A stretch of 64,000 bases of DNA from Streptomyces sp. MST-110588. Its GTDB lineage: Bacteria > Actinomycetota > Actinomycetes > Streptomycetales > Streptomycetaceae. The stretch covers positions 3,546,001 to 3,610,000 of the forward strand of contig NZ_CP074380.1 of the NCBI RefSeq assembly GCF_022695595.1, read 5' to 3'. The position numbers were made by a program, and so were the translations under genes. Below the pieces are notes generated by a model that saw only the letters and a program-made list of their open reading frames with translations, ran no database searches and had not been told where the DNA came from. Positions 4,337 through 29,253 of this stretch are shown one piece after another; the stretch's first letter is position 1, and each line of letters begins with the position of its first letter.

Positions 4337-5314
4337 GTGAGCAGGCTCCATGTCGTCAGCGGCAAGGGTGGCACCGGTAAGACCACGGTCGCCGCTGCCC
4401 TCGCCCTAGCCCTGGCCACCGAGGGACGCCGCACCCTCCTGGTCGAGGTCGAGGGCCGACAGGGCATTGCCCAAGTGTTCGAGACAGAGGCGCTTCCGTA
4501 TGAGGAGCGCAAGATCGCCGTGGCGCCCGATGGCGGAGCGGTGCACGCACTGGCCATCGACGCCGAGCGCGCCCTGCTGGACTACCTCCAGATGTTCTAC
4601 AAGCTGGGCGGCGCCGGACGGGCGCTGAAGAAGATCGGCGCGATCGACTTCGCGACGACCATCGCCCCCGGCCTGCGGGACGTCCTGCTGACGGGCAAGG
4701 CGTGCGAGGCGGTCCGCCGCAAGGACAGGCGCGGGCGGTTCGTGTACGACGCGGTGGTCATGGACGCCCCGCCGACCGGCCGCATCACCCGGTTCCTGAA
4801 CGTCAACGACGAGGTCGCCGGACTGGCCAAGATCGGCCCCATCCACAACCAGGCGCAGGCCGTGATGCGCGTCCTGAAGTCTCCCGAAACCGCTGTGCAC
4901 TTGGTCACGCTCCTGGAGGAGATGCCCGTCCAGGAGACGGCGGACGGCGTCCGGGAGCTGCGGGCGGCGGGGCTCCCGGTGGGCGGTGTCGTCATCAACA
5001 TGACCCGCCCCACCGTGCTGGACGCCGGCGAGGTCGACATCGCCGCCAACGGGGCGCGTACCGGCATCGCCCAGGCCCTCTCCCGGGCCGGACTGGGCGG
5101 GGCACGCCGCGGCGGCCTGGCCGACCGCCTCATCGACCCGCTGCTGGAGCAGGCCCGTGAGCACGCCGAGCGGGTCGCGCTGGAGCGTGCCCAGCACGCG
5201 GAACTGTCACGGCTGGACCTGCCCACCTATGAGTTGGAGCTGCTCCCCGAGGGAGTGGACCTCGCCGGTCTGTACCGGCTGGCGAGGGACCTGCGGAAAC
5301 AGGGACCCATATGA
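4337..5314 (+). CDS. ArsA/Get3-like ATPase, first of a pair
   Basis: 325 aa from GTG 4337. Deviant Walker A GKGGTGKTT at residues 9-17, later switch residues (VMDAPPTGRITRFLNV) and an ArsA-type C-terminal region. Actinobacteria carry two such ATPases side by side; they resemble arsenite-pump or tail-anchor-targeting ATPases, but no arsB is present and no metal-site cysteines are obvious, so arsenic transport is not supported. The stop overlaps the start of the second ATPase by ATGA, implying coupled translation and probably a heterodimer. Confidence 0.88.
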   Translation: MSRLHVVSGKGGTGKTTVAAALALALATEGRRTLLVEVEGRQGIAQVFETEALPYEERKIAVAPDGGAVHALAIDAERALLDYLQMFYKLGGAGRALKKIGAIDFATTIAPGLRDVLLTGKACEAVRRKDRRGRFVYDAVVMDAPPTGRITRFLNVNDEVAGLAKIGPIHNQAQAVMRVLKSPETAVHLVTLLEEMPVQETADGVRELRAAGLPVGGVVINMTRPTVLDAGEVDIAANGARTGIAQALSRAGLGGARRGGLADRLIDPLLEQAREHAERVALERAQHAELSRLDLPTYELELLPEGVDLAGLYRLARDLRKQGPI

Positions 5315-6906
5315 CCGCGGACGGTTTGACCCCACCCGGCACGGACCACGGCACCACCCCGTACGCCGAGGGCCCGCAATCCGACGGCCCGCACACCGAT
5401 ACCTCGTACGCCAAGAGCCCGGCCACCCCGCACACCCCGGCCACCCCGCACGCTCCGGCCGCGCTGCACACCTCGGCCGCGCTGCTGGACGTCGACCCCC
5501 TCCTCGACGACCCGCGCACCCGCATCGTGGTGTGCTGCGGCGCGGGCGGCGTCGGCAAGACCACGACCGCCGCGGCCCTGGGCGTACGGGCCGCCGAGCG
5601 CGGTCGCAGGACCGTGGTGCTCACCATCGACCCGGCCCGTCGGCTGGCCCAGTCGATGGGCATCTCCGAACTGGACAACGTGCCGCGCCGGGTCAAGGGC
5701 ATCGACGAGTCCGCGGGCGGCGAACTGCACGCGATGATGCTGGACATGAAGCGGACCTTCGACGAGATCGTCGAGAGCCACGCGGACGCGGAGCGCGCGC
5801 GGGCGATCCTGGAGAACCCCTTCTACCAGTCACTCTCGGCCGGTTTCGCCGGTACGCAGGAGTACATGGCCATGGAGAAGCTCGGCCAGCTCCGCTCGCG
5901 CGACGCCTGGGACCTGATCGTCGTCGACACCCCGCCCAGCCGCTCCGCGCTGGATTTCCTGGACGCGCCCAAGCGCCTGGGCTCCTTCCTGGACGGGAAG
6001 TTCATCCGCGTCCTGATGGCACCGGCGAAGGTCGGCGGCCGGGCCGGGATGAAGTTCCTCAATGTCGGCATGTCGATGATGACCGGTACGCTCAGCAAGC
6101 TGATGGGCGGCCAACTGCTGCGGGACGTCCAGACGTTCGCCGCCGCCATGGACACCATGTTCGGCGGCTTCCGCACCCGCGCGGACGCGACGTACCGGCT
6201 GCTCCAGGCGCCCGGCACCGCCTTTCTCGTCGTGGCCGCGCCGGAGCGGGACGCGCTGCGCGAGGCGGCGTACTTCGTGGAGCGGCTGGCCGCCGAGCGG
6301 ATGCCGCTGGCCGGACTCGTACTGAACCGGGTGCACGGCAGCGGGGCCGCGCAGTTGAGCGCGGAGCGGGCGCTGGCCGCCGCGGAGGCTCTGACGGACC
6401 TGGCCGCCCAGCAGGACACCCGGGAGGACTCCCAGGCTCCCCGGGATGCCTGTGCGCCCCGGGACACCCAGGGCTCCCAGGGATCCGAGGGCGGGCCGGA
6501 GGACGGGCCGACGGCCGGACCGGGGGGAGCCGGCCCGGCGGTCAGTCCGTACGAAAATCTTGACGGGAGCGGCATTGTGGATCTCGGCGGCGGGAATGCT
6601 GGGTCTCGTACCGCCGATGGTTCCTCCCCCGCCACCGCGGCAGTGCCACCGTCAGACGCTTCCGACCCGCGCCCTTCGGCCGAGCAACTCGCCGCTGGGC
6701 TGCTGAGGCTGCACGCCGAACGTATGCAGGTCCTGGCGCGCGAGCGGCGCACCCGCGACCGCTTCACCGCACTCCATCCGGAGGTCCCGGTGGCGCAGGT
6801 CGCCGCGCTGTCCGGTGACGTCCACGACCTGGCCGGGCTACGGGAGATCGGCGAACGCCTCGCGGACCAGTCGCCCGAGCAGCCCGGCCTCGACGCGGCG
6901 ACCTGA
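5311..6906 (+). CDS. ArsA/Get3-like ATPase, second of a pair
   Basis: 531 aa, longer than its partner because of two low-complexity insertions: a Pro/Ala/Thr-rich N-terminal tail (residues ~8-60) and an Asp/Gly/Pro-rich insert (~375-445). The ATPase core is clear: CGAGGVGKTTTAAAL (P-loop residues 77-85), TIDPARRLAQSMG, VVDTPPSRSALDFLDAP, and a C-terminal HPEVPVAQV motif of this actinobacterial family. It is the larger partner in the tandem pair placed next to wblA in Streptomyces. Biochemical role unproven. The insertions look like fast-evolving linkers. Confidence 0.87.
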   Translation: MTADGLTPPGTDHGTTPYAEGPQSDGPHTDTSYAKSPATPHTPATPHAPAALHTSAALLDVDPLLDDPRTRIVVCCGAGGVGKTTTAAALGVRAAERGRRTVVLTIDPARRLAQSMGISELDNVPRRVKGIDESAGGELHAMMLDMKRTFDEIVESHADAERARAILENPFYQSLSAGFAGTQEYMAMEKLGQLRSRDAWDLIVVDTPPSRSALDFLDAPKRLGSFLDGKFIRVLMAPAKVGGRAGMKFLNVGMSMMTGTLSKLMGGQLLRDVQTFAAAMDTMFGGFRTRADATYRLLQAPGTAFLVVAAPERDALREAAYFVERLAAERMPLAGLVLNRVHGSGAAQLSAERALAAAEALTDLAAQQDTREDSQAPRDACAPRDTQGSQGSEGGPEDGPTAGPGGAGPAVSPYENLDGSGIVDLGGGNAGSRTADGSSPATAAVPPSDASDPRPSAEQLAAGLLRLHAERMQVLARERRTRDRFTALHPEVPVAQVAALSGDVHDLAGLREIGERLADQSPEQPGLDAAT

Positions 6907-12695: not shown

Positions 12696-12769
12696 CGGGG
12701 TGTGGCGCAGCTTGGCAGCGCGCTTCGTTCGGGACGAAGAGGTCGTGGGTTCAAATCCCGCCACCCCGA
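12696..12769 (+). tRNA. tRNA-Pro(CGG)
   Basis: Complete cloverleaf without encoded CCA: acceptor CGGGGTG/CACCCCG, anticodon stem CTTCG/CGAAG with loop TTCGGGA giving anticodon CGG, T-arm with GTTCAAATC, discriminator A. Its 3' part from 12728 is the AICE attachment site; the element restores the tRNA on integration. Confidence 0.96.
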
Positions 12770-12773
12770 CTGA
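12728..12773. repeat. att core, tRNA side
   Basis: 46 bp identical to 28880-28925, starting TTCGGGACGAAG and ending CCACCCCGACTGA. Includes the anticodon loop and the whole 3' half of the tRNA. Confidence 0.95.
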
Positions 12774-16290: not shown

Positions 16291-16330
16291 GCTGGAGGTT
16301 CTCCTGTTCTGTCGAAGGGACAAGGGAGCC

Positions 16331-16368
16331 GGGGCGGGCGCGGTCTTGTGGTGAGAGGCGCCCGCTCC
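16331..16368 (-). promoter_or_regulatory. hairpin leader L1 (before primase)
   Basis: On the minus strand GGAGCGGGCGC pairs with GCGCCCGCCCC (11 bp, one A-C mismatch) around the loop CTCTCACCACAAGACC, followed by CCCTTCGACA and then AGGAG-ATG. L3 and L4 share the loop and tail. No U-run follows, so not a plain terminator. Confidence 0.65.
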
Positions 16369-16376
16369 GGGCGTGT

Positions 16377-20903: not shown

Positions 20904-22123
20904 GCCGCGGCCCTCCCCCACGCGTCCGGCTCGTATCGGCTGAGCAGGATGCGCAGGGCGGCGACGGCCTGCGGCCAGACCACCCCGTTGCCGAGCGCCT
21001 TGAGCTGAGCGGTGCGCGACAGGCCGGGCACGGCGGTCACGTGGCCGTCGTCAAGGGCCATCAGCCATTCGACGAACGGCGGGTTCAATCGTCCCAGAGC
21101 GTCAGTTGGCCCGGGAGCGGGTCGGCCGATGACCGTTTCCCACCTGCGGATCGCGGGCTCATACTCACCCCAATCCGGTGCGCTGTCGACGGCAGCGTCA
21201 GGTCCCCTTTGCTGCCGCGCTGGTTCGGTCCGCCCTTGGTCCCGTCCGTCGCCCTGTGCGTCGGCAGGAGCATCGTTGCGTCCGTCAGTGTCCTGCCGTG
21301 CCCGCTGGCGTACGGCGACCCGTCCGCCCGATGGTTCCGGGTCCCGTTCGAGTCGGCCACGGTCGGCGTCGGCAGCAGCGATCCCACCTCGGCGGCCAGG
21401 CTCTTGCCGTGTGTCCCGGCTTCCTGCGAGGGACTGCGTTTGGTCTGCCGGTTCTCGCTCGCCGACGCGCGCGGAGTGGGCAGCAGGGCGACCCTTGCCC
21501 TCAGCGTGTCGTTGCGGTTTCCGTCCGGCCTGCCCGCTCCGGTCGCCTCCGAGGTTGACGGCGTGGGCAGCAGGGAGACCGTGGCCGGAAGTCCGTCCGG
21601 GTAGCCCTTGCCCTTGGCGTCCCTCGCCCTCGGGGTCGGCAAGGCGGGCGAGGACGAACAACCGCTTGCGCTGGTGTGCGCCTCCGACGTCCGACGCGCG
21701 AACAGTGCACCACTCCGCATCGAACCCGAGGCCGGCAAGGTCGGCGAGCACGGCGTCGAATCCGAGAGAAAGGTGCCCTGCGACGTTCTCAAAGAACGCG
21801 TAGCGGGGTCGTAGAACGCCAAGGGCGCGGGCGATGTACGGCCAGATGTGCCGGGCATCCTTGGTTCCCTTCCGCTTGCCCGCAGTGCTGAACGGCTGGC
21901 ATGGATAGCCGCCGGTGAGGATGTCGACCGGCTCAACGTCGTACCAGTCGAAGGCGGTGATGTCCCCGAGGTTGGGCGCCGCGGGGCAGTGGTGGGCGAG
22001 GATGCGCGCGGCGCCAGGATCGTTGTCCGCCACCCACGCCAACTCGCCTCCCAACACGGCCTGTACAGCAATGTCCAAGCCGCCGTATCCGGTGCACACC
22101 GAGCCGATCCGCGGGGCGTTCAT
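20900..22123 (-). CDS. DNA (cytosine-5) methyltransferase
   Basis: 407 aa. Motif I CTGYGGLDIAVQA, motif IV GGYPCQPFSTAG with catalytic C75, motif VI FFENVAGHL (112-114), motif VIII GAHQRKRLFVLA, motif X LKALGNGVVWPQAVAALRIL. Between VIII and X (residues ~160-310) the sequence is hydrophilic and repetitive (AADADRGRLERDPEPSG style) and has an alternative long open frame with LLPTP repeats (see findings). No partner restriction gene except the downstream HNH protein. Probably protects the element from host restriction. Overlaps the GGDEF gene by 4 bp. Confidence 0.85.
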   Translation of the reverse strand: MNAPRIGSVCTGYGGLDIAVQAVLGGELAWVADNDPGAARILAHHCPAAPNLGDITAFDWYDVEPVDILTGGYPCQPFSTAGKRKGTKDARHIWPYIARALGVLRPRYAFFENVAGHLSLGFDAVLADLAGLGFDAEWCTVRASDVGGAHQRKRLFVLARLADPEGEGRQGQGLPGRTSGHGLPAAHAVNLGGDRSGQAGRKPQRHAEGKGRPAAHSARVGEREPADQTQSLAGSRDTRQEPGRRGGIAAADADRGRLERDPEPSGGRVAVRQRARQDTDGRNDAPADAQGDGRDQGRTEPARQQRGPDAAVDSAPDWGEYEPAIRRWETVIGRPAPGPTDALGRLNPPFVEWLMALDDGHVTAVPGLSRTAQLKALGNGVVWPQAVAALRILLSRYEPDAWGRAAA

Positions 22124-22770
22124 GCCGCCACCCCCACCACGGGCGCATCGGTGCGGGCGCCGGTCCGGCCGGCGCGGCGTCCGGTGACGGTGGCGAACAG
22201 CCAGCCAAGCCCGGCGCGGCGGGTTCCGGCGCGAGCCTGTTTGGCCGCGTACATCGCCTCATCCGCCCTGCGCAGCAGACCGGACAGGTCGTCGGCGGGG
22301 AAGTCGGCAGCGCGCACCCAGCCGAGTGAGACCGTGGTGTGTACGGCCGGGTTCTGGCCGTCGACCGGCCGGGCGAGCACGCCGTGCAGGACGGCGAGCA
22401 GGTCCCCGGCGGTGCCGTGGTCGTCGATGAGGACGGCGGCGAACTCATCGCCCCCGAGTCGTCCGGCGACCCCGGTACGGCCGACGTGGTGGGCGAGCCG
22501 GTCGGCGGTCGCCTTCAACAGCGCATCCCCGGCCGCATGCCCATAGGTGTCGTTGACGTGCTTGAACCTGTCGACGTCGGCCAGCACCACAACCGAACGC
22601 GGGTCCTTCAGCAGGGCCGTGGCGCGGCGGGTGAAGCCGTCGCGGGTGCGTAACCCGGTAAGCGGGTCGCGCCGGGCGGTGTTCAGGCAGCCTCGCAGCC
22701 ACCACACATGGACGGCCCACCCCGCAGCGAGGGGCAGCGCGGACAGCAGGACACTGGCCAGGCTGTTCAC
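22120..22770 (-). CDS. membrane-anchored GGDEF diguanylate cyclase
   Basis: 216 aa. One N-terminal membrane helix (residues ~4-26), then a GGDEF domain beginning RRDPLTGLRTRDGFTRR, metal/substrate residues VVLADVDRFKHVNDTYGHAAGD, catalytic GGDEF at 106-110, and DLSGLLRRADEAMYAAKQAR. The RxxD inhibitory site five residues before GGDEF is missing (R98-T-G-V), so product inhibition may be absent. Predicted to make c-di-GMP, which holds BldD in its repressing form in Streptomyces. Overlaps its neighbours by 4 bp, so it belongs to the transfer operon rather than being an inserted gene. Confidence 0.9.
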   Translation of the reverse strand: MNSLASVLLSALPLAAGWAVHVWWLRGCLNTARRDPLTGLRTRDGFTRRATALLKDPRSVVVLADVDRFKHVNDTYGHAAGDALLKATADRLAHHVGRTGVAGRLGGDEFAAVLIDDHGTAGDLLAVLHGVLARPVDGQNPAVHTTVSLGWVRAADFPADDLSGLLRRADEAMYAAKQARAGTRRAGLGWLFATVTGRRAGRTGARTDAPVVGVAA

Positions 22771-23771: not shown

Positions 23772-24090
23772 CCCGCACCCCCTGCGTCGCAGGCACGTCG
23801 GTGTAGCCGTGCAGGTGCACCTTCGCGCCCGCGTAGTCGGCCGTCACCTTCAGCACGCGCGTGATGCCGTCGCCCTGCACTCCGTGCGTCACCTTCTCCG
23901 GCGGCACGGCCAGGGCCTCCCGCCATGCCTCGAACGCGTCCAGACCCTCGTGGAACCGCAGGGTCAGCCAGTCGGGGTAGATACGGGTCAGGTCGACGTC
24001 CGGGGCGGGCAAGTACCCAAAGTCGGCAGCCAGCAGCCGCAGTACCCGCAGCGGCGTGGACAGGCCGTCCAGCGTGAGCAGCTCGCTCAT
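23752..24090 (-). CDS. conserved AICE protein, 112 aa, unknown function
   Basis: From ATG 24090 (MSELLTLDGLSTPLRVLRLL). Compact mixed alpha/beta protein: helix, DFGYLPAPDVDLTRIYPDWL, then beta-rich ITRVLKVTADYAGAKVHLHG ending YTDVPATQGVRDDDADH. No catalytic motif recognised. Starts 4 bp inside the stop of the 97-aa gene and overlaps DUF2637. Position suggests a soluble accessory factor of transfer or replication. Confidence 0.7.
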   Translation of the reverse strand: MSELLTLDGLSTPLRVLRLLAADFGYLPAPDVDLTRIYPDWLTLRFHEGLDAFEAWREALAVPPEKVTHGVQGDGITRVLKVTADYAGAKVHLHGYTDVPATQGVRDDDADH

Positions 24091-24380
24091 GCCGCCGCTC
24101 CCTTCCGGGAGGGCCGACGGCGCCGGGCCGGGCGGGTCAGCGGGACCACGTTGAACAGTTCCGGGGCGTGCGCCTCGATCACCTCGGCGGCGATGCGGGC
24201 CACGTCGTCCGGGAGCTCCGGGTTGTCGGCGAGGATGTCGCGCGCCGCGTCCTTGCGGGCGGCACGCTCTTCCTCGGTCTCCCCCTCCTCCCCGAGCCAC
24301 AGCCCAACCGGAGTACCGAGAGCCAGTTCGATGAAGTCGTCGATGGAGACGGCCTGATGACCGCCGATATAGGCACGCAT
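24087..24380 (-). CDS. first gene of the AICE long operon, 97 aa, unknown function
   Basis: From ATG 24380 with AGGAG nearby. MRAYIGGHQAVSIDDFIELA then LGTPVGLWLGEEGETEEERA, strongly acidic and helical in the middle (ARKDAARDILADNPELPDDV, ARIAAEVIEAHAPELF), basic C-terminus (RPARRRRPSRKGAAA). Not recognised. Leads the unit 24380 to 20568, whose members overlap by 4-20 bp, and lies behind the composite leader T1-L3. Confidence 0.7.
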   Translation of the reverse strand: MRAYIGGHQAVSIDDFIELALGTPVGLWLGEEGETEEERAARKDAARDILADNPELPDDVARIAAEVIEAHAPELFNVVPLTRPARRRRPSRKGAAA

Positions 24381-24413: not shown

Positions 24414-24453
24414 CCGGGCGGTCGTGGCCTGGTGGTGAGAGGCGACCGTCCGG
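24414..24453 (-). promoter_or_regulatory. hairpin leader L3 (before the long operon)
   Basis: CCGGACGGTCG pairs with CGACCGCCCGG (11 bp, one A-C mismatch at the same place as in L1). Loop contains CCTCTCACCACCAGGCCA; followed by CCCTTCGACA, AGGAG, ATG. Confidence 0.65.
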
Positions 24454-24487
24454 GTTGTGCAACCCCCTGCCACTGTTACGGCGAGGG

Positions 24488-24533
24488 TGGTGCCCCGGCC
24501 GGGAGTCGAACCCGGCCTTGCGACCATCGGGGC
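24488..24533 (-). ncRNA. tRNA-like minihelix T1
   Basis: On the minus strand a 46-nt element folds as acceptor GCCCCGA/CCGGGGC (six pairs) stacked on a T-arm CCGGG-TTCGACT-CCCGG, ending A-CCA. There is no D or anticodon arm: an 11-nt linker joins acceptor and T-stem. Followed 35 nt later by L3. Could also be a tRNA relic. Confidence 0.55.
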
Positions 24534-24549
24534 GGTTAGGTGCGGCGTC

Positions 24550-24975
24550 TCAGGAGGTTGGCTCCACAGCCGCGTCGATGATGTCGGCGTGGTCGAACGC
24601 GAGCGGCGGCAGGTCACTGAGGGGCCACCACTGGGCGTTGGTCGCGTCATCGCCAGCGTCGATGATCGTTCCGGGGATGACGGCCAGGTGGTAGGCAACG
24701 GTGACGTACCTGCCGCGCGGGTCGCGGTCGGGCTGGTCGAACGTGCCGATCTGGTGCAGCTCTTCCGGTGCTGCGTGCACGCCGGCCTCTTCGGCGAGTT
24801 CGCGGGCGGCGGCGGCGCGGCTCGTCTCGCCGGGGTCGACGTGCCCGCCGGGCAGCGCCCACTGGCCCTTGAACGGGTCCCAGCCACGTTCGATCAGCAG
24901 AACGTACCCGTCGGCCGTGGTGACGACGACGTCGGCGGCGTAGCGGATGGTCTCGAAGGTCTCGGTGTAAGTCAT
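24550..24975 (-). CDS. NUDIX hydrolase, Pif-like transfer-immunity candidate
   Basis: 141 aa from ATG 24975 with AGGAG. Complete Nudix box from G44 to G65: GGHVDPGETSRAAAARELAEEAG. N-terminal strand AADVVVTTADGYVLLIERG and WDPFKGQWALP are typical of ADP-ribose/NTP-type hydrolases. In pSAM2 the NUDIX protein Pif blocks redundant transfer between element carriers; this gene sits in the matching place between the GntR regulator and the transfer genes. Function as Pif is inferred from context. Its mRNA would have a long structured leader (24976-25290) carrying T2 and L4. Confidence 0.85.
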   Translation of the reverse strand: MTYTETFETIRYAADVVVTTADGYVLLIERGWDPFKGQWALPGGHVDPGETSRAAAARELAEEAGVHAAPEELHQIGTFDQPDRDPRGRYVTVAYHLAVIPGTIIDAGDDATNAQWWPLSDLPPLAFDHADIIDAAVEPTS

Positions 24976-25038
24976 ACCTGCTCCTGATCAGTTGTGAGGA
25001 AGCGGGTCGTCCTTGGATCGCGCTTTATGTGAAGGGAC

Positions 25039-25079
25039 AGGGCGGCCGTGGTCATGAAGTGGCGAGAGACGGCCGCCCT
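25039..25079 (-). promoter_or_regulatory. hairpin leader L4 (before the NUDIX gene)
   Basis: Perfect 11-bp stem AGGGCGGCCGT / ACGGCCGCCCT around the loop CTCTCGCCACTTCATGACC, followed by CCCTTCACA. Matches L1 and L3 in loop start (CTCTC-CCAC) and 3' tail. Confidence 0.65.
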
Positions 25080-25124
25080 CAGCGCCCCGGCCAGGAGTCA
25101 AACCCGGCCTGTGACCACCAGGGC
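25080..25124 (-). ncRNA. tRNA-like minihelix T2
   Basis: GCCCTGG pairs with CCGGGGC (7 bp, one G-T), T-arm CCGGG-TTTGACT-CCTGG with one G-T pair. About 80% identical to T1, including the TGGTC-CA linker, but without an encoded CCA. L4 follows directly, the same order as T1-L3. Confidence 0.5.
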
Positions 25125-25225
25125 GATTGCGCTGTTCAGCACACGGATCAGAGCCCGCGTGCGCCGCCTACTTGGCCGAGGAGAGGCGGCATGATCCCCA
25201 TTGAATTGTCAAAGGTCAGACACTC

Positions 25226-25278
25226 CCGACGGGCGCGGCAACCCCCGGAGGGGCTCCCGTTTTCACGGGACCCGTCGG
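25226..25278 (-). promoter_or_regulatory. further stem-loop in the NUDIX leader
   Basis: Outer stem CCGACGGG / CCCGTCGG encloses a smaller CCCGT-TTTC-ACGGG hairpin, directly next to the GntR operator. May be a terminator for transcripts from either side or part of the leader fold. Confidence 0.4.
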
Positions 25279-25290
25279 CGCGTGACTACA

Positions 25291-25308
25291 GATTGACCTA
25301 GGTCAATC
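25291..25308. promoter_or_regulatory. GntR operator O1
   Basis: Perfect 18-bp palindrome GATTGACCTAGGTCAATC between the divergent NUDIX and GntR genes, 63 bp before the GntR start. Suited to a dimeric winged-helix repressor. Confidence 0.75.
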
Positions 25309-25371: not shown

Positions 25372-25767
25372 ATGGAGCAGAGCCCAGAAGCGCCCAAGCA
25401 GACGCCCACAGCCAAGGAGATCGCTGCGGAGTTCCGCAAGAAGATCACGGGCCCCAACCGCGAGTACGGCCCGGGAGACCGGCTCCCTGCGGCTCGTAAG
25501 CTCGCCAAAGACCTTGGCGTGCAGCTCATGACCGTGCAGAGCGCATACGGCCAGCTCCGCGACGAGGGATTGGTTCTCACCCAACAAGGCCGCGGGACGT
25601 TCGTCCGTGACCCCTCGATGCCGCTCGGCACCGAGCCGGGCAGTAGCCCTGCCTTCGCCGCACTGGCCGCAGAACTCAGCTCGATTCATGACGCTCTTCG
25701 TCTGCTCGGTGAGCGACTGGACCGCCTTGAGCAGCTTGTCGGCGACGGGACTCCACCCTCGCCGTGA
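25372..25767 (+). CDS. GntR-family repressor of the AICE (KorSA-like)
   Basis: 131 aa. N-terminal winged helix-turn-helix (residues ~12-80: SAKEIAAEFRKKI-like start, GPGDRLPAARKLAKDLGV, LMTVQSAYGQLRDEGLVLTQ, GRGTFV) and a short helical C-terminus (AELSSIHDALRLLGERLDRL, EQLVGDG) good for dimerisation, without a FadR/HutC ligand domain. This is the organisation of YtrA-like or KorSA repressors that keep pSAM2-type elements silent. It is the only early plus-strand gene and is divergent from the NUDIX/transfer genes, with two operator copies in between. Confidence 0.9.
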   Translation: MEQSPEAPKQTPTAKEIAAEFRKKITGPNREYGPGDRLPAARKLAKDLGVQLMTVQSAYGQLRDEGLVLTQQGRGTFVRDPSMPLGTEPGSSPAFAALAAELSSIHDALRLLGERLDRLEQLVGDGTPPSP

Positions 25768-28086: not shown

Positions 28087-29253
28087 GTGAGCCCATCGAC
28101 ACTTCAGCTTCTGCTCGCGGCTCTCGGCGTGGGCGGAACCCTGGCAGCAGCGATCTTGACGCAAGTCCTTCAGAAGAGGGCTGAGCGCGAGAGGAGAGCT
28201 GCCGAAGACCTCCGCAGGTGGCACGCGGAACGCTTCCGCGCCGCCAAAGAGCTGCTCTACAAGATCAAGGAGACCGAACGCATCCTCTGGAGTGCGTGTG
28301 CCTCCCTGCCCAACGAAGAGGAGTATGCGCGGCTCCGGCGGGCCGGATACATGACGCTACTCACCGTCCGCGAAACCGATGTGCCTCAGCCCACCGACGA
28401 TGTGATGGTCTTCGATACGGTGCACCTGGAGATCATCCAGGACGCACTACAGCAAGTGCACGGGCTCCTTGAAGAGGCGGAGCATCTGACTGCCGAGATC
28501 TCCATCCTGTCCGAGGGAACTACGCCAGATGCCGCGGCGGCTATGTTCGAGGCCGCATGGGACGCAGCCGGCGCCTTGGAGACAACGCGCGGCACACGTG
28601 ACGAAGCGTCCCACGCAGTCTTGGCCATGCAAGATCCGATAGCCGCCTTCCAGGCGTCCGTGCGGGCAGAACTCGGCGTGGCGGCACCCCCATCCCCCGG
28701 GGTGTTACAGCCATCGGAGGGCGACTCCGGAGGGCCGACCAGAGGAATCCGCCGTAAGGGCTGCGTGTCTAACTGCGTGACAACGGAGGCGAACACTCAC
28801 GTACGCCCACGGACGCTCAGGGACTGTTCGCGCAGCTCAGCGCCACCCGGGTGCCTGCCCCATCAGGCACCAAGATTGCTTCGGGACGAAGAGGTCGTGG
28901 GTTCAAATCCCGCCACCCCGACTGAAGGAACACCAGGTCAGGGGCCTGATCCGCGAAAGCGGGTCGGGCCCCTGACCTGTTATCGCTGCCTCTTGGGAGC
29001 CGGTCTCGGAATCCGCCTCCCAGAAGGCTCCTATCCCACGTCACACCCTCCGAGAATGCGCTTCAGCAATCCGCGGGTGACGCCCAGTGATCCACGCCAC
29101 GTCACCACTGGGACCAAGGGGCGCCTCTTTCTGTCACTTGGGTCACAACGCCTCATCGCTCCGGCTGACTCGAGCAGACCTGCGGTACACGGAAGGCGCC
29201 AGACGGAGCGCCCGGCCGTCCTCGGCACAGCGCCGAGGACGGCCATCTGTTGA
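28087..29253 (+). CDS. membrane-anchored coiled-coil protein reading through the att site
   Basis: GTG start. Residues ~5-22 form a membrane helix (LQLLLAALGVGGTLAAAILT), followed by a charged coiled coil (QKRAERERRAAEDLRRWHAE) and a soluble helical domain to ~215. The credible coding part ends near 28730; beyond it the frame is Arg/Pro/Thr-rich, runs through the tRNA fragment (GSNPATPT) and on into chromosome for a nominal 388 aa. In the excised circle the same frame would stop three codons after the core (Glu-Lys-TAG), giving 281 aa. Function unknown; superinfection or surface control are only guesses. Confidence 0.55.
   Translation: MSPSTLQLLLAALGVGGTLAAAILTQVLQKRAERERRAAEDLRRWHAERFRAAKELLYKIKETERILWSACASLPNEEEYARLRRAGYMTLLTVRETDVPQPTDDVMVFDTVHLEIIQDALQQVHGLLEEAEHLTAEISILSEGTTPDAAAAMFEAAWDAAGALETTRGTRDEASHAVLAMQDPIAAFQASVRAELGVAAPPSPGVLQPSEGDSGGPTRGIRRKGCVSNCVTTEANTHVRPRTLRDCSRSSAPPGCLPHQAPRLLRDEEVVGSNPATPTEGTPGQGPDPRKRVGPLTCYRCLLGAGLGIRLPEGSYPTSHPPRMRFSNPRVTPSDPRHVTTGTKGRLFLSLGSQRLIAPADSSRPAVHGRRQTERPAVLGTAPRTAIC
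28769..28781. repeat. CTAACTGCGTGAC, candidate integrase arm site (right)
   Basis: Direct repeat of 12835-12847, 99 bp before the right att core. Confidence 0.45.
28880..28925. repeat. att core, distal side (tRNA-Pro 3' fragment)
   Basis: 46 bp identical to 12728-12773. A tRNA fragment, not a gene: the 5' half (acceptor and D-arm) is missing. Confidence 0.95.
28934..28979 (+). terminator. original tRNA-Pro terminator
   Basis: CAGGTCAGGGGCC / GGGCCCCTGACCTG stem enclosing CCGC-GAAA-GCGG. Displaced from the tRNA by the AICE. The CAGGTCAGG start is shared with the element's left hairpin. Confidence 0.7.
29214..29244. terminator. hairpin before the Mrr-like gene
   Basis: Perfect 13-bp stem GGCCGTCCTCGGC / GCCGAGGACGGCC, 5-nt loop. 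Insulates the nuclease gene from upstream transcription. Confidence 0.65.

Follow-up and report, generated by a model that had tools for sequence, protein, structure and literature searches.

Two minihelices, T1 and T2, on the minus strand of an AICE within a 64,000-nucleotide stretch of Streptomyces sp. MST-110588 DNA (the window) belong, as judged by comparing sequences, to a family of tRNA-like elements with a 12-bp stack, a T-loop of the form TTCGANT, a short linker and N73-C74. The linker, often GATGGTCGNA, takes the place of the D and anticodon arms. We lean toward the view that these elements (T) serve as anticodon-less "tRNA punctuation" that RNase P and RNase Z recognize and probably cleave. 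The broader proposal is offered tentatively: phages and conjugative elements may punctuate their messages with decoding-dead minimal tRNAs (a 12-bp acceptor/T-arm and a linker of about ten bases whose GG would rebuild the elbow), so that cuts by host RNase P and RNase Z would give each gene or gene group its own message ends.

The AICE is approximately 16 kb long; in the window it has a tRNA-Pro gene at one end and, at the other, a repeat of 46 bases from the 3' end of that gene. The left att core, the 3' end of that gene (12728..12773, plus strand), is identical to 28880-28925, and this exact repeat probably marks the bounds of the element. Its gene content includes NUDIX, DUF2637, GGDEF, C5-methylase, SSB, AAA and prim-pol genes. 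The NUDIX-domain gene (24553..24975, minus strand; PF00293, 1.5e-25) has T2 and a hairpin, L4, on one side and T1 and a hairpin, L3, on the other; its position presumably resembles that of pra in pSAM2. Downstream of T1 and L3 lies a gene for a 97-aa protein (24090..24380, minus strand), homologues of which recur in many T-bearing loci. The GGDEF domain gene of the AICE (22123-22770, minus strand) likewise has homologues in many T-bearing Streptomyces loci.

T1 (24488..24533, minus strand) pairs GCCCC with GGGGC and GGCCGGG with CCCGGCC, with the loop TTCGACT and the linker GATGGTCGCAA. On its 3' side a discriminator A at 24491 is followed by CCA at 24488-24490, and the element is placed 16 nt past the NUDIX stop codon and 107 nt ahead of the next ATG. 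T2 (25080..25124, minus strand) pairs GCCCT with GGGGC and GGCCGGG with CCTGGCC, with the loop TTTGACT, in which C56 is changed to U, and the linker GGTGGTCACA; its discriminator is G, followed by C, and it lies in the 5' leader of the operon, 104 nt ahead of the NUDIX ATG. An earlier note on this DNA had described both as an acceptor stem joined directly to a T-arm with no D or anticodon arm, ending in ACCA in T1, and both the fold and the T1 end agree with what we find. Its estimate of about 80% identity is also in line with the 37 equal positions counted by eye among 46 aligned. The compensation that it saw between the two stems holds only in part: G-C/G-T differences are present, but the changes between T1 and T2 are one-sided, and double changes occur in relatives only. 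T1 and its close relatives are better drawn as 5+7 than as 7+5, the latter containing one A·C in T1; the sum is 12 bp both ways.

Both elements were missed by ARAGORN and by the Rfam tRNA model (RF00005) at its gathering threshold. ARAGORN reported only tRNA-Pro and tRNA-Ser in the window, and Rfam at gathering threshold added only the small SRP RNA. Compared with shuffles, single-sequence folding of T1 and T2 was unremarkable (z of -1.60 and -0.80, respectively), so the evidence for the fold rests on comparison. A covariance model built from five copies, including T1 and T2 (R1), scores them at 72.4 and 67.2 bits, both having contributed to the model; applied to 54 sources, R1 gave 58 matches, 55 of them distinct.

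Covariation, which the earlier note had expected among homologues, was strongly borne out in three sets of copies. In alignment A3, made from the 55 distinct R1 matches, 98.8% of cells are paired and 7 of the 12 pairs show double changes, a result reached by none of 500 shuffles. Alignment A7 holds 44 diverse copies preselected for pairing and shape, and its percentage of paired cells is thus given by construction. Its covariation score is 0.964, compared with 0.178 in shuffles and at most 0.183 when the alignment is slid; cells with changes on both sides number 184, against 52.7 in shuffles, with all shuffles far below. Changes on both sides occur at ten of its twelve pairs, but 293 of 500 shuffles do as well by this measure. 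The third set, 87 distinct matches of which 8 came originally from annotated phage or plasmid loci, was picked by linker and loop letters with pairing ignored, and 77 of these form all ten free pairs. G·T outnumbers A·C by 43 to 6 in this set, and this excess indicates that the sense strand is what folds. Searching by structure alone, a descriptor found 76 matches in 803 kb and none in five shuffles that permuted two-base blocks. Comparison of the copies shows that the sense RNA folds into an unbroken acceptor/T-arm stack of 12 bp with a T-loop at its end, and that the copies mostly lie between genes running in one direction.

The continuous pairs, measured in 203 copies, number 12 in 129 and 13 in 57; the insertion point of the linker moves along the stack and the total number of pairs stays. 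C74 is present in 119 of the 129 12-bp copies and in 51 of the 57 13-bp copies, and 115 of the 129 have a purine (A or G) as N73. The CCA end noted earlier for T1 turned out to be no family feature, as CCA follows N73 in only 2 of the 129 12-bp copies and is absent from 127, whereas N73-C74 is general. Host tRNA genes, sampled at 30 loci of 66 matches, have C74 in 35 of 35 examined, 28 without CCA and 7 with it. The 13-bp copies have N73 paired, which counts against processing.

GG is found in 214 of the 219 linkers from a relaxed scan, partly a retrieval effect since many of the viral loci had been found through the linker. In the fairest sample, the gene blocks of the Gordonia phages VanLee and Cafasso, GG is usual and not universal. 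Among the matches to the structure-only descriptor, the 12 linkers that do not start with GATGGTCG all contain GG. Insert lengths over 1.25 Mb of viral loci have one peak at 10-11 nt (125 copies) and another at 40-44 nt (45 copies), the size of true tRNAs. Between the peaks are scattered intermediates, some with small hairpins; three shuffles, again of two-base blocks, gave none. Before positions and lengths were counted, 13 of the 219 matches were taken out by hand: five that had no GG, four more from the true tRNA array L189, two from L104 and a single match from each of L133 and L185. The length count left out a further 3, and a few chance matches, such as one in L024, are still included.

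The elements are often placed close behind genes. A same-strand stop codon lies less than 20 nt before the start of 111 of 206 copies, compared with 29 of 206 for the opposite strand, in both cases for unannotated reading frames. The median distance from stop to T is 11 nt (184 copies with a same-strand stop within 300 nt), and the next start follows at a median of 36 nt (198 of the 206 copies have a start no more than 400 nt away). When reading frames of 100 aa or longer on both strands are considered, 136 of the 206 copies fall inside one, compared with 8231 of 10300 random positions; this contrast is weak, as is expected for GC-rich DNA, and is counted against the processing reading.

In two phage gene blocks, as in tRNA punctuation of polycistronic RNA, co-directional tRNA-like units stand at most gaps of an operon. 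VanLee has, between 60000 and 84560 (24.6 kb), 18 gaps of 75 nt or more separating leftward genes, and 17 of these contain a tRNA-like element (16 found by the descriptor and one by R1), none of them antisense. The inserts there are between 9 and 40 nt long; the 12 bp, the T-loop and N73-C74 recur, so that only the determinants for RNase P and RNase Z are constant within one operon. Cafasso has, between 62000 and 87157, 11 leftward gaps of 45 nt or more, and 8 of these contain an element, in two cases with one mismatch; weaker cases occur in two rightward gaps. The counts omit edge genes (114-116 in VanLee; 111-113, 167 and 168 in Cafasso), the VanLee tRNA and the rightward Cafasso genes 160-165, and a 2068-nt gap in Cafasso is an artefact of the omitted genes. 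A VanLee match at 5105-5751 proved to be an annotated tRNA-Arg, and another at 22063-22424 is doubtful and was left uncounted. One VanLee copy (L288 16654-16756) has a 40-nt insert that seems to have arisen by duplication of the linker and inner strand of the copy itself.

The AICE itself has two copies. Five of the seven phage records searched whole have only one to three each, which counts against punctuation. Gordonia phage Trine has three tandem copies straight after gene 41 (L127 4700-5010), separated by GGC-rich spacers. An annotated CDS covers all three (gene 40) and another covers one copy in Mycobacterium phage Journey13; these also count against the reading, and we take the two as putative over-long gene calls.

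The earlier note had tied T to the AICE transfer operon and the NUDIX gene; T is not specific to either and also occurs in phages and plasmids. Of 392 Streptomyces genomes searched with R1, 45 contain T at E<=0.01, with a strong match in 41 and only a weak one (E above 1e-5) in 4. Homologues of the proteins of this AICE are encoded within about 3.5 kb in 37 of 47 Streptomyces T loci. NUDIX relatives are encoded at 16 loci, and the flanks of the eight Streptomyces ones were inspected. T was found on both sides of the gene in L015, after it in L009 and as a divergent copy in L012; R1 matched a copy 3.5 kb off in L013 and a weak divergent copy in L010, and gave no match in the other three (L011, L014 and L016). 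A NUDIX-linked element was rejected, the genes neighboring T being spread over many clusters. A divergent Streptomyces subtype with a 7+5 stack, an ATCGA-type loop and a longer linker was seen at L010 10931-10983, at L097 3197-3249 and after the NUDIX gene in L012.

Among other chromosomes, 8 of 296 Actinomycetota genomes gave a match at E<=0.001. By eye, those in G408 and G584 look real and that in G421 is possible; G400 has no T-loop, G566 and G412 are tRNA-Leu-type genes, and the remaining two are this genome and a Streptomyces. Matches in 2 of 296 Bacteroidota and 3 of 349 Pseudomonadota genomes were tRNA-type genes or had no T-loop, and by eye none looks real. These chromosome scans, that of the 392 Streptomyces genomes included, scored only 15-21 candidates per genome under stricter filters, and weak copies may escape them. 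A possible tRNA-like element with a longer linker was seen in a non-Streptomyces actinomycete genome (L247 1501-1546).

A BLASTN search with a 49-base T consensus matched 23 phage and 4 plasmid records, part of the rows being checked. T was confirmed by model or by eye in the Gordonia phages VanLee, Cafasso and Trine and the Gordonia plasmid pGBRO01; in the Mycobacterium phages Konstantine, SWU2 and Journey13 and the Corynebacterium phage StAB; and in the Streptomyces phages Dagobah and Endor1, the Bacteroides phage BF1-TP2 and a Parabacteroides plasmid. Outside AICEs, T is thus present in phages of Mycobacterium, Gordonia, Corynebacterium, Streptomyces and Bacteroides and in two plasmid lineages. 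In BF1-TP2 and the Parabacteroides plasmid its neighbors are a small gene on one side and an Erf-type gene on the other. In viral contigs, 96 of 122 loci have, among the matches listed, a copy in which all twelve pairs are possible; a search for the host of two lower-GC viral contigs gave no match. One of the pattern matches inspected overlapped an ARAGORN prediction. Larger tRNA-like elements are found in Arthrobacter phage AbbyDaisy and Mycobacterium phage Jaan; R2 did not match the former and matched the latter over 17 positions only. A second BLASTN query returned 64 phage records (26 of Vibrio, at least 4 of these annotated tRNA), which were not counted as T.

T resembles several known RNAs. 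With tRNA (RF00005) it shares the 12-bp acceptor/T stack, the T-loop and N73-C74, but it is without D and anticodon arms. Of the Rfam profiles, mascRNA-menRNA (RF01684, the tRNA-like 3' ends of MALAT1 and MEN-beta) comes nearest to T1 as well as to T2, with scores of 22.9 and 19.3 bits against a gathering threshold of 42.5, too low for membership. Apart from this sub-threshold profile, matched twice, Rfam gave only one chance-level sRNA family on the T region. The mascRNA-menRNA of long mammalian RNAs are processed by RNase P and RNase Z; mascRNA is mammalian, with one per transcript, and differs from T, in which a linker of about 10 nt is present and a third arm is missing. The likeness is most likely convergent. 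In mitochondrial tRNA punctuation, tRNA-shaped units between same-strand genes act as processing signals; the T units differ in being non-decoding, about 45 nt long and located in phage, plasmid and AICE operons. T would work like tRNA punctuation and mascRNA, yet it is a member of neither tRNA nor mascRNA.

Bacterial Y RNA (YrlA) mimics tRNA without decoding; unlike in YrlA, no Ro-binding part was seen in T. VanLee has a gene annotated as a Ro-like RNA-binding protein beside its tRNA-Arg gene (L288 5752-7368), and no Y RNA was found at the Rfam gathering threshold in a scan of five T-bearing phage loci. A T-box is a leader RNA with tRNA architecture that binds tRNA, whereas T imitates it; Rfam gave no T-box match in the window. 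No Rfam 15 family scored above threshold for T in the loci scanned, and the T-bearing phage loci scanned likewise gave no match on T. Searches of open-licence PubMed Central full text returned no description of such an element in the portions retrieved. T would add to phage and integrative-element annotation an RNA family missing from it.

The available part of PMC11143913 bears on whether such a unit could be cut. There, RNase P cleaves model hairpins with an acceptor stem and T-arm at the canonical site. The enzyme also acts on mRNAs and phage RNAs, including phage C4 antisense RNA, phage M3 RNA and T4 gene 32 mRNA. The model AT1 (acceptor stem, T-stem and T-loop) is the same minimal domain as T, the former being synthetic and the latter natural, conserved, equipped with a GG-bearing linker and mostly without CCA. 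For the C4, M3 and gene 32 RNAs the same part describes no serial, covarying, intergenic family like T. The acceptor/T-arm domain, T-loop and 5' leader that it names for an RNase P substrate are all present in T. According to PMC4810234, RNase P clamps the tRNA elbow, RNase Z makes contact with it and CCA enzymes measure against it, and G19-C56 is its exposed pair.

The linker GG, judging from its conservation, may dock into the T-loop as G18/G19 of the D-loop do, restoring the tRNA elbow; both partners hardly vary, which puts this contact beyond the reach of covariation. RNase P would clamp the elbow and cut 5' of G1, a few bases past the upstream stop codon, and copies without CCA may also be cut behind N73 by RNase Z. 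The message on the upstream side would thereby gain a 3' end near its own stop, and the one on the downstream side would begin with a fresh 5' leader, insulated from what precedes it. In the AICE, the operon leader would be trimmed at T2, and a cut at T1 would split the NUDIX message from the transfer genes. The host genome encodes RNase P RNA, and it has an RNase Z homologue scoring 281.7 bits, slightly under the cut-off of 292.95. Of the tRNA enzymes that the earlier note listed as possibly recruited, RNase P and RNase Z fit the 12-bp stack, T-loop, linker GG and N73-C74 best, but EF-Tu and aminoacyl-tRNA synthetases are disfavored, given the free variation in the stems and the rarity of CCA. 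A CCA-less tRNA-like 3' end, as RNase Z substrates have, is found in 127 of the 129 12-bp copies but not in T1, where the encoded CCA is expected to disfavor the enzyme and counts against the reading; so do U56 in T2 and the position of T2 in a leader rather than after a stop. If the processing reading is true, phage and AICE polycistronic messages are cut at gene borders by tRNA enzymes in a mitochondria-like manner, with tRNAs reduced to their recognition core, and many natural mRNAs join the substrates of RNase P as a class. It would also account for the gaps of roughly 100 nt that interrupt the otherwise dense gene blocks of VanLee and Cafasso, and T would provide natural minimal tRNA elbows for structural work and compact processing insulators.

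An uncut structural insulator, in which a tRNA-like knot stops 3' exonucleases and frees the next ribosome-binding site without any tRNA enzyme, is an unlikely account. It would suit the position of T close behind stops and the next start at a median of 36 nt, but any hairpin would suffice for it, and the conserved T-loop, 12 bp, N73-C74 and linker GG would be unneeded. No run of T letters, as an intrinsic terminator has, follows T1, T2 or the relatives inspected by eye. We give somewhat less credence to T as a site for another tRNA-recognizing factor (an elbow-binding or modifying protein, EF-Tu, a CCA enzyme or a regulator encoded by the element) that controls translation or stability downstream. 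Such a site would fit T2, in an operon leader beside hairpins common to L066 and L073, and the elbow is read by many factors according to PMC4810234; against it stand the variable inserts, the near absence of CCA and the filling of nearly all gaps of one operon rather than the marking of one regulated gene. The frames downstream of 58 copies, crude picks of which some are wrong, also fall into eight clusters of two or more and 11 singletons.

That T is excised as a small RNA acting in trans, for example as a decoy for tRNA-targeting enzymes, with the intergenic site merely convenient, seems improbable: the tRNA-like shape and the several copies in some elements would agree with it, but stems and inserts differ within one phage and placement after stops would be unneeded. 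Least probable is a DNA-level feature, whether a tRNA-gene 3' remnant, an attachment site or a cassette recombination site, for although the AICE ends in a tRNA-Pro gene repeat and T copies flank the NUDIX gene in the window, L057 and L076, T is by eye unlike the att core and its tRNA-Pro, stem letters change with pairing kept, and the excess of G·T over A·C points to selection on the sense strand. On covariation the recombination-site and att-remnant readings are rejected, and the widely differing stems and non-random positions are the opposite of the unchanging sequence and random placement of recognizable tRNA-gene fragments, which the earlier note had named as a refuting outcome.

The leader regions around T contain further hairpins. 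L3 (24419..24448, minus strand) has the stem CGGTCG/CGACCG and the loop CCTCTCACCACCAGGCCA, with CCCCTTCGACA and AGGAG next; L4 (25039..25079, minus strand) has the stem AGGGCGGCCGT/ACGGCCGCCCT and the loop CTCTCGCCACTTCATGACC, then GTCCCTTCACA, and its region (25020-25080) folds with a z of -3.13. The loop CTCTC[A/G]CCAC and tail CCCTTC(G)ACA ahead of a start codon, as reported earlier, are present in both. A third L hairpin, with the stem GGGCG/CGCCC, loop CCTCTCACCACAAGACCG and tail TCCCTTCGACA, lies in the leader of the prim-pol gene without T (about 16311..16372, minus strand), in a region 74% identical to that of L3. Nine L hairpins, picked for being hairpins with an L loop, have TCTCNCCA in common and differ in their stems. 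A crude search found L after T in 16 of 58 cases, missing L3 of the window and counting at least 2 places within coding sequence. L is a module separate from T, since one L occurs without T and other T copies are followed by different hairpins or none.

Upstream of T2 lie two hairpins seen by eye: L2, GCCGCCTCTCCTCGGCCAAGTAGGCGGC (25163..25190, minus strand), with similar sequence ahead of T in L066 and L073, and L1 (about 25226-25278, minus strand). A plus-strand gene (25372-25767), which looks by eye like a putative GntR-like gene, is divergent from the operon with T2 in its leader. Between this gene and the T2 leader is the palindrome TGACCTAGGTCA (25294..25305), with TTGACA alongside, a likely operator/promoter. 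Another recurrent leader hairpin, of the type AACGGCG...CTCCGGGGGTG...GGGCCGTT, was seen by eye after T and before other genes in L058, L065, L067, L069 and L010.
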